In this document: piece by piece, positions 1 through 55,395 of the stretch | Position numbering within the stretch: the stretch's first letter is position 1 | How the letters are laid out: the number at the start of each line of letters is the position of its first letter | NCBI RefSeq assembly: GCF_030056815.1 | Contig: NZ_JASHKR010000017.1 | Span: forward strand, 1-64,000 | Direction: 5' to 3' | DNA: 64,000 nucleotides | From: Rhodococcus sp. IEGM 1379 | Lineage (GTDB): Bacteria; Actinomycetota; Actinomycetes; Mycobacteriales; Mycobacteriaceae | Translations under genes and position numbers: made by a program | The notes under the pieces: generated by a model | Databases searched by the model: none | Told to the model about the DNA's origin: nothing | What the model saw: only the letters and a program-made list of their open reading frames with translations

Positions 1-858
1 CGACTGCGGGGTCACCGTTGGTGACGCCGTTGATCATGAGCTGACCCATGCCGGGAAGGCCGAAGATCTGCTCGATGACTACGGCGCCACCGAGGAGGTA
101 GCCCACTCGCAAGCCCAGAACGGTGAGCGGATTGATCAGCGCGTTACGCAACACGTTTCGGCCGATCACCACGGGGTAGGGCAGACCGCTGCCGATCGCG
201 GTGCGCACGTAGTCCTTGTCCAATTCCTCGACCATGGAGGTGCGGATGATACGAGTGAGTTGGGCAGCGACGGGGAGTGCCAGTGACAGCGCGGGAAGCG
301 CCATGTACCAAAGCCATTCGGTGATGGAGTCGCTCGGATTGACGTAGCCGCCGGTGGGGAACCAGCCGAGCTGGACGGCAAGATACTGAATCATCAGCAG
401 TGCCAACCAGAATGACGGTGCGGCAACACCGCCGAGTGAAATCACTCGAATTACCTGATCGGGCCAGCGATCACGGAACAGTGCGCTGGTAACACCGAAA
501 ATCAACGAGATCACGATGGCAATGACCAGTCCGAGAACCGTGAGCTGGATCGTCAGCGGCAGCGCTGTGGAGATCGAATCCAGCACCGGCGTACCCGAAA
601 TCAGGCTGTTACCCATGTTGCCGCTGACAAGATCGGTCACGAAGTGGACGTACTGCAGTGGCAGTGGGTCGAGCAGGCCGTTCTCTTCTTTGAACTGCTG
701 CAACTGTTCTGCCGTCGGGTTGCCACCGTTGAATGCCGCTGTTGCGGGGTCGGTGGGCGCGAACTGCATCACGATGAAGACGAACGCGATGATGCCGAGA
801 ATCAGGGGGATCAGTATCAGTAATCGCCTGATCAGCATGGGGAGGACTCTTGCCATCG
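1..858 (-). CDS. ABC transporter permease, DppB type (partial, C-terminus beyond window)
   Basis: First permease of a dipeptide/oligopeptide/nickel-family (family 5) ABC importer, an integral inner-membrane protein. The visible 286 residues begin MARVLPMLIRRLLILIPLI, a typical hydrophobic first helix, and include the DppB-like region ending near GYLLGGAVVIEQIFGLPGMG, where the cytoplasmic EAA-type coupling loop lies. The ATG at 858 follows the binding-protein gene by about 40 bases on the same strand, so the two are probably co-transcribed. The second permease and ATPases would lie beyond the left edge. The substrate cannot be read from the permease. The divergent amino-sugar operon suggests a sialic acid or related sugar, by analogy with the family-5 SatABCD-type sialic acid importers. 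That assignment is inference. Confidence 0.88.
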
Positions 859-899
859 GAGGATCTCTCAGTTGTCGGAAATTGCCGCGCGCGCGGGCA

Positions 900-2525
900 T
901 CAGGCGGGCTTCGACTGAAGCAGGTTGACGCCGGGGTACGGCAGTGGTGTGACGTCGGCGATCTTCTTCGGATCCCAGGCCGTTAACAGTTCCTGATGCA
1001 GAACCGGGTAGTAGACGGCATTTTCGGCGATCTGGTTCAGGTACGACTGCACCAGGGTGCTGCGCTTGCCGGGGTCCGTCTCGCGGGTCGCGTCGTCCAT
1101 GGTGGCGTAGATCTTCTGAGCTTCGGGCGTGTCGTCCCACTTGGCGTAGGTCTTGGTCCAGAGCCCGCCCTTGCTGTACGTGTAGCGGACGAGCAGGTCG
1201 ACGTCACTTCCGAAGGCCTGCGGGTTGGACGTGCCGGCTGCAATCTGGAACTTCTGGCCGCTGTTGAGCTTGCTGACCATCGCGCTGGTGTCCTGCGGCT
1301 CGAGGGTGGTGTTGAATCCGACTGCATCCCAGGACTCTTTGATCGTGGGCAGGCAATCCGCGAGCCAGCTGACGTTGGTGGAGAGCAGAGTCAGGTCGAG
1401 TCCACTGACGCCGGCGGCGGAGAGGAGGGACTTCGCCTTTTCCGGATCGTAGGAGTAGACGGTGGAGGCACGCGAGTAATCGGGATTGCGCTCGTACAGG
1501 TAGCTGGTGGCGGGAGCGGCCTTGCCGCCGAGGGCGATCTCGATCATCTTCGGGGTGTTGATCGCGTAGAACATTGCCTGACGAACTCGGACGTCGTCGA
1601 ACGGGGCCTGCGTCGTGTCGAAGAGCAGGTACATGAGATTCATGCCTGGGTTGCCCTCGACGGTGCGCCCACCGGATGTCAGCGTCGGGACGTTCGCGAC
1701 GGGGATGTTGTCGGCGAGCTGAGCGCCGGCGTTGCTTCCCGAGACACGGGCGATCCGTGACGACGTGTCGACGATGGACATCCAGTTCATCGTGGCGAAA
1801 TTCGCGGGCCGTGAGCCGTTGTATGCGGTGAAAGCCTCGAATGCCGTGTTGCTCTTGGGTGTATGGCTGGTCACCTTGTACGGACCGGAGCCGACAACCA
1901 GAGTGCCGGCCTTTGCTTCGTCCCAACGGCCGTCGAAGACATGCTTTGGCATGATCTTGGCGATCGAGAGACGTTGTGCGGCAGCACTGAACGGGTAGTT
2001 GAAGCTCAGCGTCACGGTCTGATCGTCGACCTTGCTGACCGACTGCAGCCACGACGAGAAGAACGAGCGGATCAACACGTTCTGCTGCGGATCGAGAATG
2101 CGGTCGAACGTGAAGACGACGTCGTCGGACGTGACGGGTGTGCCGTCGTGCCAGGTCGCGCCTTCACGGATCTTCATGGTCCAGCTCGACGCGGTGTTGT
2201 CCGTGGGGACGGACTGCGCAAGTGCGGCATATGTCTCGCCGGTGGCGGGATCGTTTTCGAGGAGGCCCTCGTAGACGTGGTTGACCGCGGCCATCAGGAA
2301 GCCCGAGGCCGTCTGCATCGGGTCGAAGCTCTGATCGTTGCCGTATCCGATAGCGGTGGTGAGATCTCCGGTGCTCGAAGATCCGCCTACAACGGAGGTC
2401 GACGACGGGCCACCGCCGCAAGCAGCGAGGGTCGCGGTGATGCCTGCGGCAGCTCCGAGCAGTCCTGTATATCGAAACAGGTCTCGGCGGGTGAACGCGG
2501 AGCTCAGCGGTCGTTCGTTCTTCAA
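900..2525 (-). CDS. ABC transporter substrate-binding lipoprotein, family 5 (SBP_bac_5)
   Basis: Extracytoplasmic solute receptor of the adjacent family-5 importer. The N-terminus carries a twin-arginine motif (TRRDLFRY) followed by a hydrophobic stretch and a lipobox (TLAAC), so a Tat-exported, lipid-anchored protein is predicted. The mature region has the usual family-5 layout, with the GATWHDGTPVTSDDVVF motif near residue 120. I prefer the TTG at 2525 (about 541 residues) because GGAGG lies five bases upstream. An in-frame TTG at 2537 is the alternative and would swallow that site. The gene faces away from the Gfo/Idh/MocA-nan-nag operon across a 260-base gap with matching operators, so both are probably controlled together. 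The ligand is inferred to be a sialic-acid-like or amino-sugar compound; a peptide cannot be excluded. Confidence 0.88.
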   Translation of the reverse strand: MKNERPLSSAFTRRDLFRYTGLLGAAAGITATLAACGGGPSSTSVVGGSSSTGDLTTAIGYGNDQSFDPMQTASGFLMAAVNHVYEGLLENDPATGETYAALAQSVPTDNTASSWTMKIREGATWHDGTPVTSDDVVFTFDRILDPQQNVLIRSFFSSWLQSVSKVDDQTVTLSFNYPFSAAAQRLSIAKIMPKHVFDGRWDEAKAGTLVVGSGPYKVTSHTPKSNTAFEAFTAYNGSRPANFATMNWMSIVDTSSRIARVSGSNAGAQLADNIPVANVPTLTSGGRTVEGNPGMNLMYLLFDTTQAPFDDVRVRQAMFYAINTPKMIEIALGGKAAPATSYLYERNPDYSRASTVYSYDPEKAKSLLSAAGVSGLDLTLLSTNVSWLADCLPTIKESWDAVGFNTTLEPQDTSAMVSKLNSGQKFQIAAGTSNPQAFGSDVDLLVRYTYSKGGLWTKTYAKWDDTPEAQKIYATMDDATRETDPGKRSTLVQSYLNQIAENAVYYPVLHQELLTAWDPKKIADVTPLPYPGVNLLQSKPA

Positions 2526-2571
2526 GGCGGCCTCCAAGGCTGGGAGCGGGACATCTAAGGGGAGTGGATAG

Positions 2572-2600
2572 GGGATGTCCTATGTTCGACGTCCGATGTT
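2572..2600 (-). promoter_or_regulatory. Operator site 1, with an imperfect tandem copy
   Basis: The 15-mer GGGATGTCCTATGTT (2572-2586) is repeated as an exact reverse complement at 2765-2779. A diverged copy, CGACGTCCGATGTT (2587-2600), abuts it, matching 11 of 14 positions. The site is about 47 bases upstream of the binding-protein start, a good position for a repressor. The regulator gene is not in the window; a GntR-family NanR-like protein is a guess from pathway context. Confidence 0.6.
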
Positions 2601-2738
2601 GCGTAACTTACATTGCGGATCAGAACGCGTAAAGAGATTCTCGAGATCTGACGAGGAAAAATTTTGCGCATCAGCTGCTTTTTGGAGACATTTAGCGCTT
2701 CTACCTGCATATATGAAGACTGTGTTACCGATGTCGAA

Positions 2739-2779
2739 TTGACGGCAGATCGCACTGCCTGTACAACATAGGACATCCC
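2739..2779 (+). promoter_or_regulatory. Promoter with overlapping operator site 2
   Basis: A promoter-like pair TTGACG (2739-2744) and TACAAC (2762-2767), spaced 17 bases, precedes the first oxidoreductase gene. The operator AACATAGGACATCCC (2765-2779) overlaps the -10 element and the expected transcription start, and is the exact reverse complement of operator site 1. This layout predicts repression by occlusion. The promoter is called by eye only. Confidence 0.55.
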
Positions 2780-2801
2780 TTATCCAATCTTTGGAGACTT
2801 C

Positions 2802-3851
2802 ATGACCCGATACAAAGTCGGTGTGGTCGGTTGCGGATTCTTCGGTAGTGCTCTCGCTCGCGAGCTTGCTGCCCATCCACGTTTCGAACTCACGATGCTC
2901 TGCGACCGCGACCTGGGGCGGGCAAAGGAAGTCGCTTCAGAGTTCTCGGCTATTCCCACGGACGATCACGACGCGGTTGCTGCTGCCCCACTCGACCTCG
3001 TTGTCGTTGCGACGCCCAATCACGCACACGCGGAACCTGCCATCGCCGCACTCGAACGTGGGAAGGCGGTCTTTGTCGAGAAACCACTTGCTGTCGAACT
3101 CGTCGATGCGCGAAATATGATCGCGAGCGCCGACGCCAATGGCTCATCGTTGATGGTCGGACACATCATGCGGATGATGCCTGGTGTGCGACGCCTCGCG
3201 GAGTCGGTTCGATCCGGAGAGCTCGGGGACGTCAGTGCAATCGAGACGTCGCGCTCGCGGTGGATCGACAGTGACGGCGCGGACCCGAACTGGTGGAAGC
3301 TCGACAAGAGCCGAACCGGCGGCGAACTCACTCACGAAATTCATGAACTGGATCTGCTGTGCTGGCTCGGCGGTGATGTGAGTGCCGTGTCGAGCATTGC
3401 GACAGCCGATGACGGGTTTCGGAACACCGTGGTGAAGTTTGTCAGTGGAGCCGTTGGCAGACATGCCATTTCGACGCGTTCGCACACGTCGACCTGGGAT
3501 CTGACGGTCAACGGCAGTGAAGGTGCGATCCGCGCCGATTTCCACAGCGGTCAGGTCCGTCGGTTGCGAGGCGGTCAGGTTGTCGAGTCCTGGCCGATCT
3601 TCGATATCGAAACCGAGAATCAATCCTTGATCGACTCGGCCGTCAAGACACAGAAGTACAACTCGGGCGGTGGGGCCTCGTCGGTATGGATGCAGGCCGC
3701 GATCCGCTACGAAATCGATGAGATTGCAGCGGTTCTCGACACAGGCTCGGCAGATTCTCCGTTGCTCGAGGCCAGTGATCGCGCCCTGGTAGTCGCAGAA
3801 CAGGTGCGTCTCGGAAATGTCGAGCCCGCCGGCCTGAGGACCGCCCCATGA
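2802..3851 (+). CDS. Gfo/Idh/MocA family oxidoreductase 1
   Basis: NAD(P)-dependent sugar oxidoreductase of the Gfo/Idh/MocA family, 349 residues, cytoplasmic. The Rossmann fold starts at once with VGVVGCGFFGSALA (residues 6-19), and the family EKPLA motif follows near residue 92. The C-terminal substrate domain includes GGELTHEIHELDLLCWLGG, with histidines in the region that normally binds the sugar. The start has GGAG six bases upstream. It is the first gene of a run of overlapping genes (ATGA junction with the next). Members of this family convert unusual sialic acids, for example 2,7-anhydro-Neu5Ac by NanOx/YjhC, and oxidise inositols and sugars. The neighbouring nan and nag genes make a sialoside substrate plausible, but the reaction cannot be assigned from sequence. 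Confidence 0.88.
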   Translation: MTRYKVGVVGCGFFGSALARELAAHPRFELTMLCDRDLGRAKEVASEFSAIPTDDHDAVAAAPLDLVVVATPNHAHAEPAIAALERGKAVFVEKPLAVELVDARNMIASADANGSSLMVGHIMRMMPGVRRLAESVRSGELGDVSAIETSRSRWIDSDGADPNWWKLDKSRTGGELTHEIHELDLLCWLGGDVSAVSSIATADDGFRNTVVKFVSGAVGRHAISTRSHTSTWDLTVNGSEGAIRADFHSGQVRRLRGGQVVESWPIFDIETENQSLIDSAVKTQKYNSGGGASSVWMQAAIRYEIDEIAAVLDTGSADSPLLEASDRALVVAEQVRLGNVEPAGLRTAP

Positions 3852-4849
3852 GTGTCCGCGTCGCTGTAATCGGAAGCGGCGGAATTGCACGCGACCATGT
3901 GAAAGCGCTGGCCGGTCTATCGTCGGTCGAGGTTGTCTGCGTTGTCGGTAGTGATCTCGACCGGTCGGCCTCAGTAGCCGCTCTGGCCCCGGGGGCACAA
4001 GCGTCGACGGATCTCGCACGCGTTCTTGCTGATCCGTCGATCCATGCTGTGAACGTCGTCGGAGCCACACCGGATCATGCACCGGTCACCATCGCCGCAG
4101 GTCGCGCCGGAAAGCATGTGCACGTGGAGAAGCCGGCTGCGTTGACTGTCGCAGACTTCGACGCCATGGTAGCGGCCACCGAAGGAAACGGTACGTCGTT
4201 GATGGTCGGCCAGACGGTGCGTTTCCAGCCGTCGATCAGCTCGATCGGTACTTCGATCGGTCACGGAGCAATCGGTGATCCTCGATTGATCCACCTCAGT
4301 TGGTACACCGGCCACGTGTGGCCGGGTGGTTGGCGCGGCTGGCAGCACGACAAGGAGAAGTCAGGCGGGCATCCGGTACACAACGGGACTCACGCACTGG
4401 ATCTGGTGACCTGGCTCATCGATCGGCGCCCAATCCGAGTCTTCGCCCGCAGCTTCCCGACCTTCGCTGCTGGCATGCCGGTCCACGACAGCTTCCATCT
4501 GACTGTCCGATTCGAGGACGGTTCCCTGGCATTGATCGAATTGGCCTATGCGCTACCGCAATCGGGAAAGATGGTGCGCCGCATCGTCGTATCCGGCACA
4601 CGCGGCACCCTTGCCCACGACACCGGCGACGATCCGGGGTTGATGTCCGACACCACCAATGCACCACCGTCGTCGATCGAGGACGCGATGACGCATCAGA
4701 TGCGTCACTGGATCGACACTCTCGACGGGTCGGCGACACCGATCGTCGAGAACTGGCAGGTACGTGCGGCTCTCGCTACCGCCGTCGCCGCGCAGCAATC
4801 GCTCGATACCGGTCGCGCAGTCACTATCGAACTGGGGGGACAGCGATGA
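3848..4849 (+). CDS. Gfo/Idh/MocA family oxidoreductase 2
   Basis: Second member of the same superfamily, 333 residues, clearly diverged from its neighbours. It shows the dinucleotide-binding motif VAVIGSGGIARDH at residues 5-17, VEKPAAL near residue 95 with the conserved Lys, and GGHPVHNGTHALDLVTWL near residue 178, with the histidine typical of the family active site. The ATG overlaps the stop of the previous gene (ATGA) and its own stop overlaps the next start in the same way, so translation of all three oxidoreductases is probably coupled. The paralogues may act in sequence or form hetero-oligomers on one substrate. This is inferred from arrangement only. Confidence 0.87.
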   Translation: MSVRVAVIGSGGIARDHVKALAGLSSVEVVCVVGSDLDRSASVAALAPGAQASTDLARVLADPSIHAVNVVGATPDHAPVTIAAGRAGKHVHVEKPAALTVADFDAMVAATEGNGTSLMVGQTVRFQPSISSIGTSIGHGAIGDPRLIHLSWYTGHVWPGGWRGWQHDKEKSGGHPVHNGTHALDLVTWLIDRRPIRVFARSFPTFAAGMPVHDSFHLTVRFEDGSLALIELAYALPQSGKMVRRIVVSGTRGTLAHDTGDDPGLMSDTTNAPPSSIEDAMTHQMRHWIDTLDGSATPIVENWQVRAALATAVAAQQSLDTGRAVTIELGGQR

Positions 4850-5901
4850 CTACCACTGATTCGATTCGAGTCGGATTCATCAGCGGCGTACGACATGCCG
4901 GATCCTATGCAGACTTGCTACGAGCAGACCCCCGGGTTCAACTGGTCGGTGTCTCCGACGAATCCTCGGTCCCCGACTGGATCCGCGGCGACGGTATTGC
5001 CATGGCGGCAGCCGCCGGCATCCCGTGGATCGACGAGCTGAGTGAACTCCTCGATCCTGATCGCATCGACCTGGCGATTATCTGTAGTGAGCCGACGCGT
5101 CATGCCCGCCTTGCCATTGCGGCATTGAACGCAGGTCTCGACGCGCTCGTGGATAAGCCGGTAGGCATCGACGAAGCAGAAGCCGCTTCAGTCGAGGAAG
5201 CTGCTCGCGTGAACGGGCGTATCTGCTCAGTAGTCAACCGCACCCATTCGCCGGCACTCCGGAGACTGCGTCGTTGGATCGACGCGGGAAATCTGGGACT
5301 TCCGCGACATGTGGACATCGAGTTCTTGGCCAGTGGAACACATTTCGCTACCTCCGTGGAGAGGCCCGAACTTGTTGTGGACCCGGCGTTGTCCGGCGGG
5401 GGAGAGGTTGTGAACTTCCTGGGATATGCCGCCGACTATCTCCGGTATCTGACCGGACTGGACGTAACCGAGGTTTATGCGGAGACCAGCACGCTCTACG
5501 GCGGTGCACATGAGAAGTACGGTGTCGAAGACACAGCTCTGATCTCACTCGCGCTTGCCCACGGTGTCACGGCGACCGTCACTGTTGGAAGAATCCCGGC
5601 AGCACCAGGTTTCGGTGCCAACACAGCAACAGTTCGTGTTCTCGGGTCACACGGATATGCCAGTTCGGATGACGACAAACCTGCGGTCATGCAGTTCGGA
5701 GCTGCCGGTGGTGTGACAGCACTGTCAATCGGCGGATTCGGATCGGACAACGCGGTCTCGAGCTTCCTGTCGCATCTGCTCGATCGACTTCCGAAACGGA
5801 TCGAACCCGACTACACCGTTGCCGACGCTCGTGCGTCGATGCGGGTCATCGACGCAGCTTATCGGTCCGCCGCGTCTGGACAGCCGGTTTCCGTCAGCTG
5901 A
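4846..5901 (+). CDS. Gfo/Idh/MocA family oxidoreductase 3
   Basis: Third Gfo/Idh/MocA protein, 351 residues, starting at the ATG that overlaps the preceding TGA. The N-terminal motif is atypical (VGFISGVRHAGSYADLL instead of GxGxxG) and the usual EKP is DKPVGID near residue 103. It is therefore the most diverged of the three, and its cofactor binding is less certain. The C-terminal domain has ALSGGGEVVNFLGYAADYL. The reading frame stays open far upstream inside the previous gene, but that extension has no homology-like character and the coupled start is preferred. It precedes the NanA-family gene by about 60 bases. Confidence 0.82.
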   Translation: MTTTDSIRVGFISGVRHAGSYADLLRADPRVQLVGVSDESSVPDWIRGDGIAMAAAAGIPWIDELSELLDPDRIDLAIICSEPTRHARLAIAALNAGLDALVDKPVGIDEAEAASVEEAARVNGRICSVVNRTHSPALRRLRRWIDAGNLGLPRHVDIEFLASGTHFATSVERPELVVDPALSGGGEVVNFLGYAADYLRYLTGLDVTEVYAETSTLYGGAHEKYGVEDTALISLALAHGVTATVTVGRIPAAPGFGANTATVRVLGSHGYASSDDDKPAVMQFGAAGGVTALSIGGFGSDNAVSSFLSHLLDRLPKRIEPDYTVADARASMRVIDAAYRSAASGQPVSVS

Positions 5902-5959
5902 CCTTTCTGTAAGTGCATTACCCCCAATTCAATCCGAGAACAAAATTATGGAGACCCAC

Positions 5960-6889
5960 ATGAGCACGGATGCCACGACCTTCAGCGGAATCGTTCCTCC
6001 GATCGTCACACCCCTGACCCTCGACGGCGACGTCGACACGAAGTCGCTCGAGCGACTGCTGTCGATGCAGATCGAAGCCGGCGTCGACGGGCTGTTCATC
6101 CTCGGTTCCTCGGGTGAGGTCGGCTACCTCACCGACGCCCAGCGCGCGCAGGTTGTTCGGACCGCAATCGGCCACGTCGGCGGCCAGCTGCCCGTGCTGG
6201 TCGGCGTGAACGACATGACCACAAACCGAGTTATCGAGGTGGCGAAGCAGGCATGCGAGGCCGGTGCCGACGCCATCGTCGCGACCGCACCCTTCTACGC
6301 GATCACCAACGCCGAAGAAACAGCGACACACTTCCGCTCCATCCATGCAGCAGTGGATCTTCCGCTGTTCGCGTACGACGTTCCGGTTCGCGTTCACAGC
6401 AAGCTCAACACGGCAATGCTGGTCGAACTCGGCCGAGAAGGCGTCATCGCCGGTGTCAAGGACTCCAGCGGTGACGACGTGAGCTTCCGCATGCTGCTCC
6501 GTCAGTCGGTAGGTCTGGAGAACTTCGCGATCTTCACCGGCCACGAGGTCGTTGTCGACGGATGCCTGCTCATGGGTGCATCGGGCGCAGTTCCCGGCTT
6601 GGCCAACGTCGACCCGCACGGATACGTTCGTCTGTGGCGCGCCGCGCAGGCCGGCGACTGGGCCGCTGCCAAGACCGAGCAGGACCGACTCACGGATCTG
6701 TTTTCCATCGTCGAGGCGCCGACGCCGGGCCGCGTAAGCCCCGGCGCTGCCGGTCTGGGCGCTTTCAAGACGGCTCTGGTTCTGCGCGGTGTCATCACGG
6801 GCAACACGATGTGTGCACCGATGCTCTCGCTCGATGAGTCCGAAGCCGCAACGATCAAGGTCATTCTCGAACGCGCCGGACTGCTCTGA
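5960..6889 (+). CDS. DHDPS/N-acetylneuraminate lyase family aldolase (probable sialic acid lyase)
   Basis: Class I pyruvate-type aldolase of the DapA/NanA family, 309 residues. The Schiff-base Lys167 (GVKDSSGD) and catalytic Tyr139 (FAYDVP) are 28 residues apart, as in both DHDPS and NanA. The carboxylate-binding signature is GSSGE (49-53), between the GTTGE of DHDPS and the GSTGE of sialic acid lyases. The ATG at 5960 has GGAG six bases upstream; an in-frame ATG at 5948 is the weaker choice. Downstream are a ROK kinase, NanE, NagA and NagB, so cleavage of a nonulosonate to pyruvate plus ManNAc is the most coherent role. Residues after the Tyr differ from classical NanA, so a modified sugar acid or a keto-deoxy-sugar substrate remains possible. 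Confidence 0.85.
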   Translation: MSTDATTFSGIVPPIVTPLTLDGDVDTKSLERLLSMQIEAGVDGLFILGSSGEVGYLTDAQRAQVVRTAIGHVGGQLPVLVGVNDMTTNRVIEVAKQACEAGADAIVATAPFYAITNAEETATHFRSIHAAVDLPLFAYDVPVRVHSKLNTAMLVELGREGVIAGVKDSSGDDVSFRMLLRQSVGLENFAIFTGHEVVVDGCLLMGASGAVPGLANVDPHGYVRLWRAAQAGDWAAAKTEQDRLTDLFSIVEAPTPGRVSPGAAGLGAFKTALVLRGVITGNTMCAPMLSLDESEAATIKVILERAGLL

Positions 6890-6891
6890 CC

Positions 6892-7821
6892 ATGACACAC
6901 GGGCATCAGCGTTGGATCGGCGTCGATATCGGCGGCACCAAAGTGGCTGCGGCGGTGATTACTTCCGCTGGTGAGGTGATCGAATCCGTTCGGGCGGAGA
7001 CGCCGGCGGCGGGCAGAGCGGCGGTGCTGGACACGACCGCTGCATTGATCGACAAACTGCGCGCCGAACACGCTGTGTCGGGAATCGGTGTGGGATCACC
7101 GGGAATCGTCGACCGTGCAAGCGGCCGAGTGGTGTTCGCGTCCGACATCCTGCCCGGGTGGAACGGTGCGGAGGTCCGGGAGGAGCTAGAAGCTCATACC
7201 GGACTTCCGGTGACCGTGGACAACGACGTTCGAGTGATGGCACACGGCGAGAACATGATCGGTGCCGGCCACGGCCGAACCTCCGTATTGTTCGTGTCGA
7301 TCGGCACCGGAATCGGTGGAGCGTTGTCGATCGACGGCCGGCTCCGCCACGGCGCTCACGGCACAGCCGGTGAACTGGCGCATCTGCTGGTTCCCGTAAC
7401 CGGTGCCATCGGCTGTGGATGTGGCCGCAAAGACCACCTCGAAGCCGTAGCATCCGGACCAGCGATGGCCGCCGAGTACGCCTCTCGTGCCGGAGTTCCC
7501 GTGCAACCGTTGCAGAGAGTTGTCGCCCTCATGCATTCGGGTGATCCTATCGCTCGCGCAGTGATCTCCGATGCCGGTGAATTACTCGGCCGAGTTCTGG
7601 CCGGCGTGGCAACAGCATTCGATCCTGAGGTCATCGTCATCGGTGGTGGCGCCGCCCAGATCGGAGCCGATCTTCTCTCTCCCCTGGTCTCGGCATTCCG
7701 CGTCGAAGCTATGCCTCCCGTCGCCGACACCGCCATTCTTCCGGCACGTCTGGGAACCGATGCACCGCTGGTTGGTGCCGGACTGCTTGCCGCCGCAACA
7801 CGAACAGAGGTATCACGATGA
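6892..7821 (+). CDS. ROK family sugar kinase (probable N-acetylmannosamine kinase)
   Basis: ATP-dependent sugar kinase of the ROK family, 309 residues. It has the N-terminal phosphate-binding motif IGVDIGGTK, the conserved GTGIGGAL, and the HGTAGELAH segment that holds a zinc-binding His. The zinc motif normally written CxCGxxGCxE reads CGCGRKDHLE here, so the third cysteine is replaced and a nearby His may substitute. It starts two bases after the lyase stop and overlaps the epimerase start by four bases. Between a lyase and NanE the natural job is phosphorylation of ManNAc to ManNAc-6-phosphate. GlcNAc or glucose kinase activity cannot be excluded. Confidence 0.87.
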   Translation: MTHGHQRWIGVDIGGTKVAAAVITSAGEVIESVRAETPAAGRAAVLDTTAALIDKLRAEHAVSGIGVGSPGIVDRASGRVVFASDILPGWNGAEVREELEAHTGLPVTVDNDVRVMAHGENMIGAGHGRTSVLFVSIGTGIGGALSIDGRLRHGAHGTAGELAHLLVPVTGAIGCGCGRKDHLEAVASGPAMAAEYASRAGVPVQPLQRVVALMHSGDPIARAVISDAGELLGRVLAGVATAFDPEVIVIGGGAAQIGADLLSPLVSAFRVEAMPPVADTAILPARLGTDAPLVGAGLLAAATRTEVSR

Positions 7822-8522
7822 CCATCGACGAATTGCTCACGATCATCAGCGGGAAGCTGATCGTCTCGTGCCAGGCAGGCCACGGCCACGCCCTGCGCGA
7901 TACCGCGACGATCGAACGGATGGCCAGGGCGGCCATCGACGGTGGTGCGGCCGCGATTCGCTGTGGTGGAGTCGGTGGTACTCCGGACGTTGCGGCTGTT
8001 GCGGCTGCTGTGCGTGTACCTGTGATCGGACTGACCAAAATCGGTTCCACTGGAGTGTTCATCACTCCGACAAGAGAATCGGCGTTGGATGTCGTCGACG
8101 CCGGTGCGCAGATCGTTGCGGCCGACGCGACGCTGCGTCCACGCCCGGACGGACTGACATTTGCGGACACCGTTGAGGCGGTTCACGCTCGAGGTGCTCT
8201 CGTGATGGCCGACTGCGGCACTCTCGAGGACGGCATCGCGGCCGCCGCTGCCGGGGCCGACATCATCTCGAGTACCCTCGCCGGTTACACCGAGAACAGT
8301 CGACGTCTGAGTGGCCCGGACCTGGAACTGATTTCGGAACTGCGGCAAGCACTTCCGTTTGCAGTGCTCATCGCAGAGGGTCGCTATCACAGTCCGGAAG
8401 CAGCAGCACAGGCGATTTCATTGGGTGCGGATTCAGTTGTCGTCGGTACGGCGATCACCGATCCGGCGTTCATTACCTCGACCTTCGCTGCAGCGGTCGT
8501 GGGTGCGGAAAGGCGGAGTTGA
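7818..8522 (+). CDS. nanE: N-acetylmannosamine-6-phosphate 2-epimerase
   Basis: TIM-barrel enzyme that converts ManNAc-6-phosphate to GlcNAc-6-phosphate, 234 residues, the usual NanE length. Diagnostic segments are KLIVSCQAGHGHAL near the N-terminus, AAIRCGGVGGTPDV, IGLTKIGSTGVFITPT, DATLRPRPDG, MADCGTLEDG and IIAEGRYHSPEAA-type C-terminal phosphate-binding residues. It overlaps the ROK gene by ATGA and the next gene by one base. NanE is the pathway-defining enzyme of this locus, because it is dedicated to ManNAc-6-P and links a sialic-acid-type supply to the NagA/NagB branch. Confidence 0.93.
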   Translation: MTIDELLTIISGKLIVSCQAGHGHALRDTATIERMARAAIDGGAAAIRCGGVGGTPDVAAVAAAVRVPVIGLTKIGSTGVFITPTRESALDVVDAGAQIVAADATLRPRPDGLTFADTVEAVHARGALVMADCGTLEDGIAAAAAGADIISSTLAGYTENSRRLSGPDLELISELRQALPFAVLIAEGRYHSPEAAAQAISLGADSVVVGTAITDPAFITSTFAAAVVGAERRS

Positions 8523-9184
8523 TGACTGCTGAACTCCGAAAAGTCGAAGCATTGCTTAATGATTCGGTGACTCCGATCCGATGGGTATTCACCGGGGATA
8601 GCATCACGCAGGGTCTGGCCCACACCAACGGGCGTCGCAGCTACGTCGAGCACTGTGCCGAACGCATACGGGGGGAACTGTCACTCTTCAACCACGTCGT
8701 CGTCAACACCGGGGTGAGCGGGAACCGTTCTTCCGATATCCGTGACGGATTTTCCCATCGCATCGAGATCTTCGAACCGTCGGTGGTTCTGATCATGCTG
8801 GGAACCAACGACGCGTTGGGCGGCGTTGACGGGCTCGAAGGTTTCCGGGAAGACCTGTCTGACATCATCTTCCGGGCGCGTGGTCTCGGTGCCGTGCCGA
8901 TTCTGCAGACACCGCCGCCCATCGATGTCGAGAACGCTCCCACCCGCGCCGGGCTAGCAGACTATGTCGATATGGTCCGCCAGGTCGCCGCATCGACGCG
9001 TGCGATTCTCGTTGATCACGATGCGCAGTGGATAGCGAATTCGCCTGACGGTCCGCAGTCGGCGCTCCTGGCCGATGCATTCCATCCGAACGAACACGGA
9101 CACTACGTGCTGGCAGACGCAGTACTGCGTGCGCTGGGTATCGCAGATACCGCCAGTCCGGCTGCCGCTGCGGTGATGTCGTGA
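8522..9184 (+). CDS. SGNH/GDSL hydrolase, possible sialoside O-acetylesterase
   Basis: Small serine esterase of the SGNH superfamily, 220 residues from the ATG at 8522, which overlaps the nanE stop. Visible blocks are FTGDSITQG (nucleophile Ser, block I), NTGVSGN (block II Gly), LGTNDAL (block III Asn) and DAFHPNEHGH (catalytic Asp/His, block V). There is no signal peptide, so it acts in the cytoplasm. Lying between nanE and nagA in a coupled operon, it could remove O-acetyl groups from imported sialic acid or from an amino-sugar intermediate. The family also contains lipases and acyl-CoA thioesterases, so the substrate is inference from context. Confidence 0.85.
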   Translation: MTAELRKVEALLNDSVTPIRWVFTGDSITQGLAHTNGRRSYVEHCAERIRGELSLFNHVVVNTGVSGNRSSDIRDGFSHRIEIFEPSVVLIMLGTNDALGGVDGLEGFREDLSDIIFRARGLGAVPILQTPPPIDVENAPTRAGLADYVDMVRQVAASTRAILVDHDAQWIANSPDGPQSALLADAFHPNEHGHYVLADAVLRALGIADTASPAAAAVMS

Positions 9185-10350
9185 TCCTGCGTGGGCGCCT
9201 GATCACCGGAGGTCGACTCCTGCCGGACGGCGTCGTTGAGACCGTGGGTGATCGTGTGGTGTGGGCCGGTCCGGCATCGGAGCGCAAGGATCCGGTTCCC
9301 GAGCCCGCGGAGCCTGGCACCACAATCATCCCCGGTCTCGTCGACGTTCACTGTCACGGCGCCGGCGGATTCGGATTCCCGGAAGCCGATTCAGAAGGCT
9401 CCACCGCGGCAGCCGACCACCATCGGCACAACGGAACCACCTCGGTCGTAGGGTCGTTGGTCTCGGCACCCCCCGAGATCCTGCGTCAGCGCATCGACCT
9501 GCTCGCCAGTCTCGTGGACGACGGCACACTTGCCGGGATTCACCTGGAAGGGCCGTTTCTCTCGGTATTGCGTTGTGGTGCTCAAGATCCCGCGAGTATT
9601 CTCGACGGAGACCCCGCACTGCTCGAGTCGCTGTTGGAATCTGGGCGCGGCCACATCCGGTCGATGACGATCGCACCCGAGACAGCGCACTTCGCGGAAC
9701 TCTCGACGATGCTTCAGACTCACGGCGTCGTGGTTAGTGTGGGTCATACCGACGCATCCAACCCCACAGCAACGCGTTCGATCGCACATTCTGCGCACGC
9801 GCCGCTCAGTGCAACACATCTCTTCAACGGGATGGCGCCGATGCACCACCGTGCGCCGGGTGCTGTGGCCGCTTGCCTGTCAGCCGCAGCTCGCGGGCAG
9901 ATGGTGGTGGAACTAGTTGGTGACGGGGTCCATCTGGCAGACGAAACAGTCTCCACAGTCTTCGATTTGGTGGGTCCGCACCAAATTGCATTAGTCTCCG
10001 ATGCAATGGCAGCGGCCGGTATGCCGGACGGGCGGTATCCGCTTGGGCCGCTGGACGTGGACGTGGTCGCTGGAGTGGCCAGATTGGCGGGACAAGGCGA
10101 CACGGCAATTGCCGGTGGTACCAGTCGGCTGATGGATATCGTTCGTAGAACTGTGATCCATGCCGGCGTAGATCTATTGTCAGCGGTTACTGCCGCAACC
10201 GGTACACCCGCTGCGCTGTTGGGCCTGACCGGCAAGGTCGGTGACCTCACCCCGGGTTGTCGTGCCGATCTTGTTGTCATCGACAAAGAACTCTTTCCCC
10301 GAGCCGTCATGGCTTCGGGTAGCTGGCTCACGAAAACCCTGGAAAGCTGA
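9181..10350 (+). CDS. nagA: N-acetylglucosamine-6-phosphate deacetylase
   Basis: Amidohydrolase-superfamily enzyme that removes acetate from GlcNAc-6-phosphate, 389 residues, GTG start overlapping the previous stop. Metal-site and substrate motifs are DVHCHGAGG (His57/His59), GIHLEGPFLS, VSVGHTDA, ATHLFNGMAPMHHRAPG, ELVGDGVHL and the catalytic Asp in ALVSDAMAAAGMPDG. The product GlcN-6-phosphate is passed to NagB, encoded 13 bases downstream. It also serves general chitin-monomer or peptidoglycan amino-sugar catabolism. Confidence 0.95.
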   Translation: MILRGRLITGGRLLPDGVVETVGDRVVWAGPASERKDPVPEPAEPGTTIIPGLVDVHCHGAGGFGFPEADSEGSTAAADHHRHNGTTSVVGSLVSAPPEILRQRIDLLASLVDDGTLAGIHLEGPFLSVLRCGAQDPASILDGDPALLESLLESGRGHIRSMTIAPETAHFAELSTMLQTHGVVVSVGHTDASNPTATRSIAHSAHAPLSATHLFNGMAPMHHRAPGAVAACLSAAARGQMVVELVGDGVHLADETVSTVFDLVGPHQIALVSDAMAAAGMPDGRYPLGPLDVDVVAGVARLAGQGDTAIAGGTSRLMDIVRRTVIHAGVDLLSAVTAATGTPAALLGLTGKVGDLTPGCRADLVVIDKELFPRAVMASGSWLTKTLES

Positions 10351-10363
10351 GGCAAGGACCCCG

Positions 10364-11143
10364 ATGGAAATTGTTATCGTCAACGACGCGGATTCGGCCG
10401 GTACGGTCGTCGCCGACATCTTCGACCACGCAGTTCGTTCCGGCGCAAGAACTCTGGGCTTGGCCACCGGCTCGTCGCCCCTGTCCGTGTATCGCGATCT
10501 CGCACGGCGTCATCGCGAAGAAGGGTTGAGTTTTGCAGGGCTGCAAGCATTTCTGCTCGACGAGTACGTCGGACTCCCCGACGGCCACCCAGAGTCTTAC
10601 GCTCAGGTGATCCGTACGGAACTGGTCGATCATATCGACCTCGACAGTGCACGCGTCTTCAGCCCGAACGGAACCACCGGAGACCCCTTCGGTGCGGCCG
10701 CGGCTTATGATCGCGCGATCGCCGCAAACGGACCCGTGGACCTGCAACTCCTGGGCATCGGGGCAAACGGCCACATCGGGTTCAATGAACCGACGTCGTC
10801 ACTGACTTCACGCACACGCGTGAAGACTCTGACCGAACAGACCCGCCGCGACAATGCCAGGTTTTTCGAGAGCCTCGAGGACGTTCCGCGGCATGTGATC
10901 ACCCAGGGGCTCGGAACAATCTGCGATGCACGGCACTTGGTAATGATTGCGACCGGCGAGCACAAGGCTGCCGCGATTGCGGCTGCAGTCGAGGGCCCGC
11001 TCGCGGCAGTATGCCCCGCGTCGGTTCTCCAACTGCACCCGCACGCCACTGTCGTGATCGACGAAGCTGCGGCGTCGCAACTCCAACTTACCGAGTTTTA
11101 CAAGACCGTGTCAGCGCACAAACCTCTGGCGCAGCACTACTGA
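10364..11143 (+). CDS. nagB: Glucosamine-6-phosphate deaminase
   Basis: Converts GlcN-6-phosphate to fructose-6-phosphate and ammonia, 259 residues, the last step of the locus. Diagnostic motifs are LATGSSPLSVY, FLLDEYVGL, LLGIGANGHIGFNEP and SRTRVKTLTEQTR. The ATG at 10364 has AAGGA upstream. The frame stays open back into nagA, but that extension is not NagB-like. Its 3' end overlaps the convergent fadD17 by seven bases with no terminator in between, so read-through antisense RNA into either gene is possible. Confidence 0.95.
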   Translation: MEIVIVNDADSAGTVVADIFDHAVRSGARTLGLATGSSPLSVYRDLARRHREEGLSFAGLQAFLLDEYVGLPDGHPESYAQVIRTELVDHIDLDSARVFSPNGTTGDPFGAAAAYDRAIAANGPVDLQLLGIGANGHIGFNEPTSSLTSRTRVKTLTEQTRRDNARFFESLEDVPRHVITQGLGTICDARHLVMIATGEHKAAAIAAAVEGPLAAVCPASVLQLHPHATVVIDEAAASQLQLTEFYKTVSAHKPLAQHY

Positions 11144-17146: not shown

Positions 17147-17911
17147 ATGGTAGACCTCGTCGAGGTACCGTTGCGAGCGGTCGGTGGCTTCTTTCAGATG
17201 TCAGCCGAAACTTTGCGGGCAGTCTTCTCGCGTCCTTTCCAACGTCAAGAATTTATCGATCAAGCGTGGTTCGTAGCGCGCGTCTCGATGGTGCCGACCG
17301 TGCTGGTCGCCATCCCGTTCACGGTGCTCGTCAGCTTCACCATCAACATCCTGCTTCGCGAGATCGGTGCAGCCGACCTCAGTGGCGCGGGAGCTGCACT
17401 CGGCACCGTCACCCAGGTCGGACCGATCGTGACAGTGCTGATCGTGGCCGGAGCGGGCGCCACCGCGATCTGCGCAGACCTCTCGGCGCGCACCATTCGT
17501 GAAGAGATCGACGCCATGAAGGTGCTCGGCATCAATCCGATCCAGCGGTTGGTCGTTCCCCGAGTGCTCGCGTCCACCGGAGTGGCACTGCTGCTCAACG
17601 GCTTGGTCTGCACCATCGGCATCCTCGGCGGGTTCGTGTTCTCGGTTTTCATCCAGGACGTGAACCCCGGCGCCTTCGTCAACGGCATCACACTGCTCAC
17701 CGGTTTCGGCGAGCTGATGATCTCGATGGTCAAAGCCGGATTGTTCGGCATGATCGCCGGCCTCGTCGCCTCCTACCTCGGACTCAACGTCAAAGGCGGC
17801 GCCAAGAGCGTCGGTGACGCCGTCAATCAAACCGTCGTGTTCGCATTCATGGCGCTGTTCGTCGTCAACGTGCTTATCACCAACATCGGCATCAAGTTGA
17901 CGGCCGGATGA
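17147..17911 (+). CDS. yrbE4A: Mce4 transporter permease YrbE4A
   Basis: MlaE/YrbE-family integral membrane permease, 254 residues, one half of the inner-membrane channel of the Mce4 steroid importer (SupA in rhodococci). It has about five hydrophobic helices and the family segment ICADLSARTIREEIDAMKVLGINP, the coupling region that contacts the ATPase. The ATPase (MceG/Mkl) is usually unlinked and is not in this window. The ATG at 17147 has GAGGAGGACGA just upstream, a strong ribosome site. It is the first gene of the ten-gene operon behind a KstR-boxed promoter. Confidence 0.95.
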   Translation: MVDLVEVPLRAVGGFFQMSAETLRAVFSRPFQRQEFIDQAWFVARVSMVPTVLVAIPFTVLVSFTINILLREIGAADLSGAGAALGTVTQVGPIVTVLIVAGAGATAICADLSARTIREEIDAMKVLGINPIQRLVVPRVLASTGVALLLNGLVCTIGILGGFVFSVFIQDVNPGAFVNGITLLTGFGELMISMVKAGLFGMIAGLVASYLGLNVKGGAKSVGDAVNQTVVFAFMALFVVNVLITNIGIKLTAG

Positions 17912-17969
17912 TGAGGCGCAGAGCGATCGACACCGACACAGCAACTGACGACGGACGGGAGAGGTACTG

Positions 17970-18821
17970 ATGGCACTGGCAGCAGCAGGACGCTTCCCCC
18001 GCAGCCGTCGGCAGATCCGATCTGTCTCACGCGGTATCGACAGCATCGGTGATCAGGCACTGTTCTTCGCGAAGGCACTCGGACACGCACCCAAGGCGCT
18101 GATACGTTACCCGCGTGAGACTTTGCGGTTGATCGCCGAGATCGGCATGGGAACGGGAGCCCTGGCCGTCATCGGCGGCACCGTCGTGATCGTCGGCTTC
18201 CTGACACTCTTCACCGGCGGAACCATCGCCATGCAGGGCTACAGCTCACTCGGCAACATCGGCGTCGAAGCACTGACGGGATTCTTCGCAGCCTTCATCA
18301 ACGTGCGCATCGCCGCGCCTGTCATCGCGGGCATCGGCCTGGCAGCCACCATCGGCGCCGGTTCCACGGCGCAGCTCGGCTCCATGCGCGTCTCGGAAGA
18401 GATCGACGCACTCGAGACCATGGCGATCCCGTCCATCCCGTACCTGGTCAGCACTCGCGTGATGGCCGGCATGATCGCCATCATCCCGCTGTACTCGCTT
18501 GCAGTGATTGCGTCGTTCATCGCCAGCAGGTTCGCGACGGTGTTCCTCTACAATCAGTCCGGCGGCGTGTACGACCACTACTTCACGACGTTCCTGATAC
18601 CCACGGACATATTGTGGTCATTCGCTCAAGCGATAGTCATGGCGCTGGCAATCATGCTCATCCACACCTACTACGGCTTCAATGCAACCGGTGGTCCGGT
18701 GGGTGTCGGCGTCGCTGTCGGTAATGCTGTGCGCGCCTCGCTGATCGCGGTAGTCACAGTTACGCTTCTCATCTCACTCGCCATTTACGGCGGGTCCGGC
18801 AACTTCAACCTGTCGGGATAG
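17970..18821 (+). CDS. yrbE4B: Mce4 transporter permease YrbE4B
   Basis: Second MlaE-family permease, 283 residues, partner of YrbE4A in the membrane complex. The family motif is STAQLGSMRVSEEIDALETMAI, followed by several hydrophobic helices; the N-terminal 70 residues are basic and cytoplasmic. It lies 58 bases after yrbE4A and 12 bases before mce4A. Order and length match M. tuberculosis Rv3500c. Confidence 0.95.
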   Translation: MALAAAGRFPRSRRQIRSVSRGIDSIGDQALFFAKALGHAPKALIRYPRETLRLIAEIGMGTGALAVIGGTVVIVGFLTLFTGGTIAMQGYSSLGNIGVEALTGFFAAFINVRIAAPVIAGIGLAATIGAGSTAQLGSMRVSEEIDALETMAIPSIPYLVSTRVMAGMIAIIPLYSLAVIASFIASRFATVFLYNQSGGVYDHYFTTFLIPTDILWSFAQAIVMALAIMLIHTYYGFNATGGPVGVGVAVGNAVRASLIAVVTVTLLISLAIYGGSGNFNLSG

Positions 18822-18833
18822 GGGGCGAGAGAA

Positions 18834-20015
18834 ATGACTGTTCCCAGCTGGCACAAGAAACTTGCCGCCGCAGGCCTGATCCTCGGACTCGTTGCCATCG
18901 TGGTCGTGGCACTGACCATGTTCTCGGGCGGTTTCACCAAAAGCACGCCCATTACGGTGACGTCGTCGCGAGCCGGTCTTGTCATGGAACCCGACGCCAA
19001 GGTGAAACTGCGCGGAGTCCAGGTGGGCCGGGTCGAATCGATTTCACTCGACGGCGACGAGGCCAACCTCAAGCTGGCGATGAATCCGGGGCAGATGGAG
19101 ATGATTCCGTCCAATGCGCGCGTGGAAATCAAGTCCACCACCGTATTCGGAGCGAAGTACGTCAACATTGTGATTCCGGATGATCCGTCGAGCAAGCCCA
19201 TCCAAGAAGGTGCGGTTATCGAATCCGACAGCGTCACAGTTGAGTTCAACAGCGTATTCGAGCATCTCTCCGAGATGCTCGCCAAGATCGAGCCCGAGAA
19301 GCTCAACGCCACGCTTGGTGCCATCTCGACAGCGCTCAACGGTCGCGGCGAAGCGTTGGGTGAGGTTCTCGAACTCGGTAACACCTACTTGGAGAAGATG
19401 AATCCCACTCTGCCGCAGTTACAAGAGGATCTGGCGAAGGCGTCCGATGTCACCAATCTGTATGCGGATGTTGCGCCTGACCTGCTGCGGATCCTCGACA
19501 ATGCAACCGTCACAAGCGGTTCGATCGTTGCGGAGCAAGCCAATCTGGATCTGTTGCTGCTCAATATTACCGGCCTCGCCGATACCGGCAACGCTTTGTT
19601 GACCGACAACGAGCAGAATCTCACGACTGCCTTGAGCACCCTCACCGAAACCACGACGCTACTCGCGGAGTACTCACCGGGTCTGACGTGCTTCCTCGTC
19701 GGATTGAACGACGGTCGAATTAAATTCGAACCGATGGCCGGCACCGGCGACAAGGCGGCATTGATGCTCAGTGCGAGCTTCATGTGGGGTGCTCAGGCGT
19801 ATACCAACCCGGAATCCCTTCCGAAGGTGGCCGCATCCGGTGGCCCCAATTGTTACGGGCTCCCGAGCTTCGATCCCAAGGTGGACGGGCAGGCTCCGTT
19901 TGCGGTCACCAACACTGGCAACGTTCCTTTCGTGCCTAACACCGAACTCGAGGTGACCGTTCCGACGATCTTCCAGTTCCTCTTCGGGGACTCTTACGAA
20001 CAGGACGGGGAGTGA
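18834..20015 (+). CDS. mce4A: Mce4A substrate-binding protein
   Basis: Mce-family secreted protein of the sterol importer, 393 residues. One N-terminal signal-anchor helix (about residues 9-29) is followed by the MCE/MlaD domain (about 38-115, with VKLRGVQVGRVESI) and a long alpha-helical region. The C-terminus holds two cysteines (LTCFLVG, NCYG). Six different Mce subunits are thought to build a periplasm-spanning hexameric tunnel for cholesterol. GGCGAGAG precedes the ATG. The stop overlaps the mce4B start. Confidence 0.94.
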   Translation: MTVPSWHKKLAAAGLILGLVAIVVVALTMFSGGFTKSTPITVTSSRAGLVMEPDAKVKLRGVQVGRVESISLDGDEANLKLAMNPGQMEMIPSNARVEIKSTTVFGAKYVNIVIPDDPSSKPIQEGAVIESDSVTVEFNSVFEHLSEMLAKIEPEKLNATLGAISTALNGRGEALGEVLELGNTYLEKMNPTLPQLQEDLAKASDVTNLYADVAPDLLRILDNATVTSGSIVAEQANLDLLLLNITGLADTGNALLTDNEQNLTTALSTLTETTTLLAEYSPGLTCFLVGLNDGRIKFEPMAGTGDKAALMLSASFMWGAQAYTNPESLPKVAASGGPNCYGLPSFDPKVDGQAPFAVTNTGNVPFVPNTELEVTVPTIFQFLFGDSYEQDGE

Positions 20016-21034
20016 TGAGACCGACAACAGTAAAACTCTTGATCTTCACTGTCGTCATGTCGGTGATCTTCGCCGGTCTGGCCATCGTTTTCAGCCAGGT
20101 GCGCTTCAGTAGCAGCAATGGTTTTCAGGCGACGTTCACCGACGTGTCCGGACTCAAGTCCGGGGACAAGGTGCGGATCGCGGGTGTTCCGGTCGGATCT
20201 GTGACCGGTGTGTCCATCGACGATTCCAACCAGGCCGAGGTCGACTTCGACGTCGACGCCAAGTACTCCTTGATGAAGAGCACCAAGGCGACGGTCCGAT
20301 ACGAGAACCTTGTCGGTGATCGCTACATGGAATTGATGGAAGGTACGGGTTCCGCGGAAACCCTGGATTCAGGTGGTTCTATCCCGGTCGACCAGACATC
20401 GCCTGCACTGGATCTGGATTTGTTGCTCGGTGGGTTCAAGCCCCTGCTGCGGGCGCTTGATCCGCAGCAGGTCAACGATTTGTCCGGTGCGTTGCTCCAG
20501 GTCTTCCAGGGGCAGGGCGGGACTCTGGTTTCCCTTCTGGGAAACACGAATTCGTTCACCAATACGTTGGCCGACCGAGATCAGTTGATCGGCGACGTGA
20601 TCGGAAACCTCAATGACGTCCTCGGCACGATCAACGACAAGGGCGATCAGTTCTCCACTACGATCGACCAACTCCAGCAGTTGGTCAGCGGTTTAGCGAA
20701 GGACAGTGGGCCGATCGGGAACTCGATCACCGAGATCGCCGGTGCAACAGGAGACCTCGCGTCGTTGCTGCAAGGTACCCGCCCGGACATCCAGACGCTG
20801 ATAACGCAGACCAACAGGGTGTCGACGCAGTTGGATCTGGGCAAGGAAGACATCAACACGTCACTCGAACGCCTACCGTCGGACTATCGGAAGCTGATCC
20901 GGGTCGGAACCTACGGCTCGTTCTTCCAATTCTACCTGTGCGCCAATACCTTCAAGTTCTCCGGACCTGATGGCACCACGATTATCCTGCCCACCGCAGT
21001 ACAGACCACGGGAAGGTGTGCGAAGGTCGAATGA
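20015..21034 (+). CDS. mce4B: Mce4B substrate-binding protein
   Basis: Mce-family subunit, 339 residues from the ATG at 20015 (a GTG one codon earlier is possible but sits on the GGGGAG ribosome site). Signal-anchor helix at about residues 6-26, MCE domain with GDKVRIAGVPVGSVTGVSID near residue 50, then a helical rod with regular Leu/Gln spacing. The C-terminal end has two cysteines (FYLCANTF, GRCAKVE). It overlaps mce4A by one base and mce4C by four, implying coupled translation in the order in which the subunits assemble. Confidence 0.94.
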   Translation: MRPTTVKLLIFTVVMSVIFAGLAIVFSQVRFSSSNGFQATFTDVSGLKSGDKVRIAGVPVGSVTGVSIDDSNQAEVDFDVDAKYSLMKSTKATVRYENLVGDRYMELMEGTGSAETLDSGGSIPVDQTSPALDLDLLLGGFKPLLRALDPQQVNDLSGALLQVFQGQGGTLVSLLGNTNSFTNTLADRDQLIGDVIGNLNDVLGTINDKGDQFSTTIDQLQQLVSGLAKDSGPIGNSITEIAGATGDLASLLQGTRPDIQTLITQTNRVSTQLDLGKEDINTSLERLPSDYRKLIRVGTYGSFFQFYLCANTFKFSGPDGTTIILPTAVQTTGRCAKVE

Positions 21035-28927: not shown

Positions 28928-28972
28928 GTGGTTCCTTCTCGTTGGGGAATTAGGGAAAGACTCGGTCGAGAC

Positions 28973-53670: not shown

Positions 53671-55395
<1,725 letters not shown>

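Follow-up and report, generated by a model that had tools for sequence, protein, structure and literature searches.

Related sialic acid systems and the locus studied

Actinobacterial sialic acid catabolism (SAC) is encoded by nan clusters, which are defined in a 2022 survey by the occurrence of nanA, nanK and nanE within 10 open reading frames (PMC8754123). As reported in that survey, such clusters are found in ~13% of actinobacterial species, in 9.68% of Rhodococcus species and in 8.37% of Streptomyces species, and they mostly have SBP_bac_5 importers and FadR-type regulators, with nanOx present in only 5 of 255. The system analyzed here is a nan locus of Rhodococcus sp. IEGM 1379 (draft genome of 6.1 Mb) in which genes for three Gfo/Idh/MocA oxidoreductases, designated Gfo1, Gfo2 and Gfo3 and together called the trio, stand at the head of the catabolic operon. 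The locus lies in the first 64,000 nucleotides of contig C65 (NZ_JASHKR010000017.1), hereafter the window, base 1 of which is the contig end.

The canonical actinobacterial ST3 nan cluster, as described in PMC8754123 and represented by Corynebacterium glutamicum, resembles this locus in its NanA/NanK/NanE row, its SBP_bac_5 protein, the GntR/FadR-type regulator by the importer, and NagA and NagB; it differs in that here three oxidoreductases head the operon, an SGNH esterase is included and no sialidase was found in the genome. The second related system, NanOx/YjhC (NanY), shares with Gfo1 the protein family, the active-site lysines and two of three histidines, but Gfo1 has an HExH motif, is 29% identical to YjhC, falls into a separate clade and is tied to Gfo2-Gfo3. 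In a third system, the levoglucosan route LgdA-LgdB1-LgdB2-LgdC, an anhydrosugar is likewise opened by several enzymes via keto intermediates, and according to PMC7676230 two of its four proteins are C3-acting dehydrogenases and LgdC is annotated as Gfo/Idh/MocA. By analogy, the trio may share out similar work; however, the levoglucosan route acts on a neutral sugar and, in the account of PMC7676230, needs two isomerase/epimerase-annotated proteins, and no such elimination/hydration families were found among the operon proteins (by Pfam, or by NCBIfam only for NagB). Finally, the oxidoreductive sulfoquinovosidases and other NAD-dependent glycosidases (PDB titles 8qc3 and 8qc6) have the same fold and are a precedent for splitting the glycoside of an acidic sugar, although no paper on oxidoreductive sulfoquinovosidases was found in our literature search.

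Judged by gene content, the core of the locus is an ordinary actinobacterial nan cluster of a known kind, and the oxidoreductases are its new part. The link between the trio and sialic acids is well supported by the evidence set out below. As to substrate and chemistry, the interpretation that we favor, if by a modest degree of confidence, is that the trio forms an accessory module which handles a nonulosonate derivative outside the range of NanOx. The features of the locus are as follows:

2-856, minus strand: DppB-type importer permease, running off the contig end (BPD_transp_1, E 1.2e-25)
900-2537, minus strand: family-5 solute-binding protein (ST3 type), TTG start (SBP_bac_5, E 3.5e-68)
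2572-2586, plus strand: operator-like site, copy 1, GGGATGTCCTATGTT (motif search)
2765-2779, minus strand: operator-like site, second copy in inverted orientation, 22 bases 5' of the Gfo1 start (motif search)
2802-3851, plus strand: Gfo1, NanOx-like oxidoreductase with HExH motif (Pfam, alignment, tree)
3848-4849, plus strand: Gfo2, oxidoreductase with SGGHxxHNGxH motif (Pfam, alignment, structure comparison)
4846-5901, plus strand: Gfo3, divergent oxidoreductase with SxVRHA loop, DKP and GGGExxNxxxY (Pfam, alignment, structure comparison)
5960-6889, plus strand: predicted N-acetylneuraminate lyase of the CgNal type, alternative ATG at 5948 (5c54/5c55, E 3.5e-85)
6892-7821, plus strand: ROK kinase, NanK by position (ROK, E 9.4e-61)
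7818-8522, plus strand: NanE, predicted N-acetylmannosamine-6-phosphate 2-epimerase (NF002231, 256.1 bits against a cut-off of 189)
8519-9184, plus strand: SGNH/GDSL esterase, possibly a de-O-acetylase (Lipase_GDSL_2, E 8.2e-26)
9181-10350, plus strand: NagA (best model TIGR00221, 199.2 bits, under its cut-off of 225.65)
10364-11143, plus strand: NagB (TIGR00502, 243.5 bits against a cut-off of 236.9)

All of the genes named in the initial annotation are open reading frames in their places, and they form two divergent transcription units, with the importer genes on the minus strand and Gfo1-Gfo2-Gfo3-NanA-ROK-NanE-SGNH-NagA-NagB on the plus strand. Families were assigned with Pfam and NCBIfam profile models, NagB being scanned with NCBIfam only. 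The earlier description of three diverged Gfo/Idh/MocA genes leading the operon in a translation-coupled set was upheld: the three genes are diverged, and 4-base overlaps occur at five junctions (Gfo1/Gfo2, Gfo2/Gfo3, ROK/NanE, NanE/SGNH and SGNH/NagA).

Gfo1 is related to, but distinct from, NanOx

NanOx/YjhC had been proposed as the precedent for these enzymes, and part of that proposal stands in that the nearest solved relatives of Gfo1 by sequence are YjhC (E 5.1e-34) and RgNanOx (2.3e-27), the next being at 2.5e-20. Identity to YjhC is 29% over 316 residues, versus 51, 46 and 45% for the canonical copies in loci L062, L064 and L067; the cut-off given for NanOx in PMC7535918 is at least 49% identity to RgNanOx. 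The same source reports that alanine at any of the RgNanOx residues Lys93, Lys163, His175, His176 and His178 abolishes activity, and proposes a role for His176 at O7. In our alignment Gfo1 keeps the equivalents of Lys93 and Lys163 (Gfo1 Lys94 and Lys166, invariant in 9 rows), His175 and His178, with Glu179 where His176 stands. This HExH motif, in place of the HHxH of NanOx, is found in the window Gfo1 and in 15 of 15 other Gfo1 rows (12 distinct genomes); in alignments A1-A3 the last codon of the locus rows is absent, A1 is without L060, and A2 is without L060, L078 and L083.

The exact YjhC/NanOx motif, SGGHLYHHIHELD, was identified in a second protein in the loci of Arthrobacter sp. 35W, Microterricola and Microbacterium sp. 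ASV81, and in two genomes (L062 and L067) canonical NanOx and Gfo1 are in one locus. In a tree of 34 rows the 10 Gfo1 rows formed a clade with 96/96 support, and the HHxH sequences, YjhC and RgNanOx among them, formed a second (5 rows, 100/100); the YjhC and RgNanOx rows are partial, and the tree speaks to the separateness of the two groups and not to their branching order. The designation of Gfo1 as a plain NanOx was considered and dropped, given the canonical HHxH copies beside it in L062 and L067 and its separation in the tree. Among 30 pair-bearing genomes (hand-chosen and non-random, as were the sets of 15 and 11 genomes used below), canonical NanOx was present in 3, and none was found in the IEGM 1379 genome. 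A strong Gfo1 was present in 10, always near Gfo2-Gfo3 (10/10): it adjoins the pair in nine, and in Streptosporangium it is ~3 kb off with a transporter between. As judged by these comparisons, Gfo1 resembles NanOx/YjhC without being its orthologue, and because it falls into a separate clade and one essential residue is missing, the NanOx precedent is not simply transferable to it.

Gfo2 and Gfo3 are a conserved pair associated with nan genes and sialidases

Both Gfo2 and Gfo3 match the Pfam N- and C-terminal Gfo/Idh/MocA domains above the gathering score. The canonical catalytic set of the family comprises Lys in EKP, Asp, and His (or Tyr). Gfo2 has Lys95, His178 replacing Asp, and His182, so that a His occupies the canonical Asp position as with NanOx H175, and Gfo3 has Lys104 within DKP, Asn190 replacing Asp, and Tyr194. 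The best solved match by sequence was DgpA for Gfo2 and inositol dehydrogenase for Gfo3. When structures were compared, levoglucosan dehydrogenase matches were on top for Gfo3, but for both proteins the top rows were tied within a few Z units and no single substrate was favored.

To survey the pair, the genomes of 84,980 species were scanned with peptides of the window's own Gfo2, which biases the result toward close relatives. Eighty loci were returned, of which 25 strong named loci (46-92% identity) were studied and 55 weak ones, beyond a drop to at most 39%, were left aside. The hosts of the 25 loci include Rhodococcus, Arthrobacter, Kribbella, several Microbacteriaceae, Cellulomonas, Streptosporangium, Saccharopolyspora and Streptomyces, together with one draft bin of an actinobacterium and a 3-kb contig that carries the label Bacillota. 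Gfo3 comes directly after Gfo2 in all 25, at a gap of -14 to +47 bases that is mostly a 4-base overlap. Within ~10 kb of the pair, 13 of the loci have a NanA match, 10 a sialidase and 15 either of these; two more (L062 and L070) have Gfo1 and a GntR gene, and the other eight comprise seven Streptomyces loci and the 3-kb contig (L082). Chance would seldom place nan or sialidase genes within 10 kb of the pair. Twelve loci are without NanA, and in the 11 genomes that remain when L082 is set aside a NanA-family gene was found elsewhere in every case (56-62% identity in nine, 51% in two), as was a sialidase (11/11). On this genomic evidence, Gfo2 and Gfo3 are well supported as a pair that is conserved among actinobacteria and linked to nan genes and sialidases.

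Neighborhoods were compared for 36 loci, three of which repeat the same genome as another (L050=L059, L052=L061 and L053=L060), and were based on tblastn because gene calling is rough in G+C-rich DNA. Compared with their counterparts in R. globerulus, R. erythropolis and Rhodococcus sp. P-2, the proteins of the nan locus show 78-98% identity, which suggests that the strain belongs to the erythropolis/globerulus group. The same gene set is present in five other Rhodococcus genomes, and the Gfo3 of the trio in 6 of 28 (IEGM 1379 included), while the order Gfo1-Gfo2-Gfo3-NanA-ROK-NanE is shared with genomes G101 and G442 and with Kribbella. The SGNH esterase, which the initial annotation had taken as part of the clue to a modified substrate, accompanies the trio in Rhodococcus loci alone (8 of the 36 compared) and is therefore not in the conserved set. 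Four loci found via Gfo3 (L055-L058, from G611, G502, G539 and G557) have a sialidase, a family-5 importer, a 38-39% lyase and the pair, along with a short-chain dehydrogenase, another Gfo protein and a RidA-like protein (these by Pfam on L056 only). No NanK or NanE match was found in these four, which may possibly encode a different, oxidative sialic acid route. In both Subtercola loci a DUF4862 protein lies directly after Gfo3 (L065:12135-13232 and L073:11972-12964; assigned by Pfam on L065 only, E 4.3e-71).

Among 199 genomes of the genus Streptomyces, the pair was identified in 5, each of which is one of the 19 whose NanA is closest (p 4.7e-6), a value to be read in view of the facts that the strict NanA cut-off (E 2.7e-99 or better, 55-59% identity) was set after the scores were known, that the bit-score step at it is modest (333.5 to 323.2) and that related genomes are not independent. 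The share selected by this cut-off resembles the published nan-positive rate; it excludes G811, which has a partial NanA match (62% over 236 residues).

The predicted core route from sialic acid to fructose-6-phosphate

The best solved match of the lyase is 5c54/5c55 (E 3.5e-85), titled 'Dihydrodipicolinate synthase/N-acetylneuraminate lyase', and the next is a dihydrodipicolinate synthase (DHDPS; E 4.7e-39). From its equal length and annotation, 5c54 is probably CgNal of C. glutamicum, a 312-residue lyase which, as described in PMC5380162, cleaves and makes N-acetylneuraminate (Neu5Ac) yet clusters with DHDPS. Tyr139, Lys167 and GSSGE of the window lyase align with CgNal Tyr138, Lys166 and GXXGE. 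At the position of CgNal Ser143 it has Arg144, where E. coli DHDPS has the substrate-binding Arg138 (PMC5380162), a replacement which may bear on the specificity of the lyase; the same Arg is present in the lyases of sialidase-bearing clusters, for example L065, L069, L071 and L073. Of the NCBIfam models, dapA and HpaI score above two NanA models, with all four under cut-off. An assignment of the lyase as DapA was dropped, the NCBIfam models being under cut-off and a CgNal-type structure match having been found.

No NCBIfam kinase model reached its cut-off with the ROK kinase, which was designated NanK by position. NanA, ROK and NanE are consecutive at 5960-8522, in agreement with the definition of a nan cluster, the kinase specificity being read from position only. 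The initial annotation described a full path that leads from a nonulosonate down to fructose-6-phosphate, and this holds by family assignment, because the families of the core enzymes are well established (NanK again by position). The annotation's suggestion of a route not yet described in rhodococci needs to be narrowed: sialic acid catabolism as such is known there, as the survey rate for Rhodococcus indicates (PMC8754123), whereas no description of the trio, of Gfo2-Gfo3 or of a NanOx-like HExH enzyme was found in the literature searched, which did not include most subscription journals. Elsewhere in the IEGM 1379 genome, further nag-type genes occur on contigs C174 (NagA 56%, NagB 68%) and C83 (NagB 64%), in addition to those in the nan operon.

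Importer and divergent promoter

The proposed family-5 importer was confirmed as SBP_bac_5, with its genes divergent from the operon. The binding protein has a twin-arginine-like N-terminus, as judged by eye, and its best solved match is 5za4 (E 1.9e-101); a literature search for the ligand of 5yyb, 5z99 and 5za4 found none of these codes in the 15 papers listed. As an SBP_bac_5 protein encoded beside nanA/K/E, it is of the kind that defines an ST3 sialic acid importer, the transport substrate being predicted from family only. Contig C120 carries DNA matching the remaining importer genes and the GntR/FadR-type regulator of the Rhodococcus sp. P-2 locus, and the ends of C65 and C120 overlap when placed on the P-2 map.

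The two exact inverted copies of GGGATGTCCTATGTT flank the divergent promoter, and no others were found in the window at up to 2 mismatches, where a mean of 0.08 matches is expected by chance. The copies are kept in 5 other Rhodococcus loci, in a promoter region that is otherwise variable in its middle, and of 196 fetched loci 14 contain the 13-base core; each of the 14 is a Rhodococcus nan locus and has it as the same inverted pair. No GntR-type TNGTN(3-6)ACNA box was found in the promoter of four sequences. The simplest reading of this arrangement is that a single regulator would govern both divergent operons.

Other genes of the window

A gene run at 17147-26010 on the plus strand resembles an mce4-type steroid import operon, with a Pfam match to Mce4_CUP1 at 20012-21031 (E 3.3e-37) and the rest judged by eye. 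The product of 53737-55395 has a GMC oxidoreductase C-terminal domain (Pfam, E 3.8e-51). The GMC family includes cholesterol oxidase-like enzymes, and a function of that kind would fit with the nearby mce genes. Two neighboring ABC exporter half-transporters are encoded at 28217-32814 (Pfam).

Proposed pathway and alternatives

In the chemistry of NanOx, oxidation at C4 acidifies the C3 proton, the bond at C2 breaks, water is added and the ketone is reduced. We propose that the divergent family-5 ABC importer would bring in sialic acid or a derivative, and that Gfo1, Gfo2 and Gfo3 would work upstream of NanA on a derivative such as another anhydro, 2,3-ene, glycosidic or epimeric form, to yield Neu5Ac via an NAD-linked keto intermediate. 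Oxidation, bond breakage or epimerization, and re-reduction, which NanOx carries out all in one active site, would thus be split over separate ones. The loss of His176 suggests a substrate that may differ from 2,7-anhydro-Neu5Ac in leaving group or stereochemistry. NanA would then cleave Neu5Ac to pyruvate and N-acetylmannosamine (ManNAc), the ROK kinase would convert ManNAc to ManNAc-6-phosphate, NanE would form N-acetylglucosamine-6-phosphate, and NagA and NagB would lead on to fructose-6-phosphate. Through the inverted operator copies, the GntR/FadR-type protein encoded with the importer would probably act as the one switch for both sides.

Several observations weigh against this proposal. 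The activities of Gfo1, Gfo2 and Gfo3 are all inferred only, and since many sugar dehydrogenases tie structurally with them, the fold does not give the specificity of the oxidoreductases. Seven Streptomyces loci have no sialic genes within 10 kb of the pair, and two of the 11 genomes with NanA elsewhere have only the ~51% class, which is common in the genus. Sialidase was not found in IEGM 1379, two other Rhodococcus genomes or Microterricola (15 genomes examined). In Streptomyces the pair is optional, being absent from 14 of the 19 genomes with close NanA, and a loose NanA cut-off (E 1e-80; 122/199 genomes) gives p 0.08.

An alternative, which we regard as unlikely, is that the trio does the usual job of NanOx, the conversion of 2,7-anhydro-Neu5Ac and Neu5Ac2en to Neu5Ac; Gfo1 would then be a variant of NanOx, assisted by Gfo2-Gfo3. 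That YjhC and RgNanOx are the nearest solved structures to Gfo1, that four of five essential residues are kept and that the genome is without canonical NanOx would all agree with it, as would the Streptosporangium locus (L070), where Gfo1 and the pair stand on either side of an SBP_bac_1 transporter, a type linked in PMC8754123 to 2,7-anhydro-Neu5Ac. However, the replacement of His176 by Glu is uniform in Gfo1, and Gfo1 and canonical NanOx lie side by side in two genomes. Moreover, YjhC by itself is reported to perform both conversions (PMC7315737), so the trio would not be needed for them.

It is similarly improbable, in our judgment, that the oxidoreductases work downstream of the route or alongside it, their substrate being a hexosamine or neutral sugar from the same glycans (by 3-keto-glycoside chemistry, compare DgpA), and share only their regulation with the nan genes. 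The matches to DgpA, inositol dehydrogenase and levoglucosan dehydrogenase, and the separation of the pair from nan genes in the seven Streptomyces loci, point in that direction. Conversely, wherever the pair has a context it is consistently accompanied by nan genes, a sialidase and a family-5 importer; L055-L058, in which NanK and NanE gave no match, still have the sialidase, the importer, a lyase and the pair; and a Pfam scan found no levoglucosan-type isomerase/epimerase lyase in the operon. That the locus is unrelated to sialic acids, its lyase acting on another 2-keto-3-deoxy acid, is very improbable. In its favor are the curated models that rate the lyase as dapA-like, if under cut-off, and Arg144, which shares its position with the substrate-binding Arg of E. 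coli DHDPS. Against it, the same Arg is found in the lyases of sialidase clusters, CgNal, the nearest solved relative, is DHDPS-like and still cleaves Neu5Ac, and NanE, NagA and NagB require N-acetylhexosamine phosphates.

Significance

Beyond the proposal of a trio acting upstream of NanA, we tentatively raise a further possibility, plausible though it may well prove wrong, that Gfo2-Gfo3, with Gfo1 in some clusters, represents a new NAD-linked nonulosonate enzyme system of soil actinobacteria with a multi-enzyme form of NanOx chemistry, for example in the intracellular oxidoreductive cleavage of imported sialosides or the epimerization of an unusual sialic acid. Soil actinobacteria have nan clusters even though sialic acid usually comes from animals. 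A NanOx-like gene in a nan cluster should not automatically be taken as NanOx, as the two genomes in which Gfo1 and canonical NanOx adjoin make clear. A conserved module distinct from NanOx would suggest that some soil actinobacteria meet a form of nonulosonate for which we know of no route, and it provides a shortlist of genes with which its substrate may be found.

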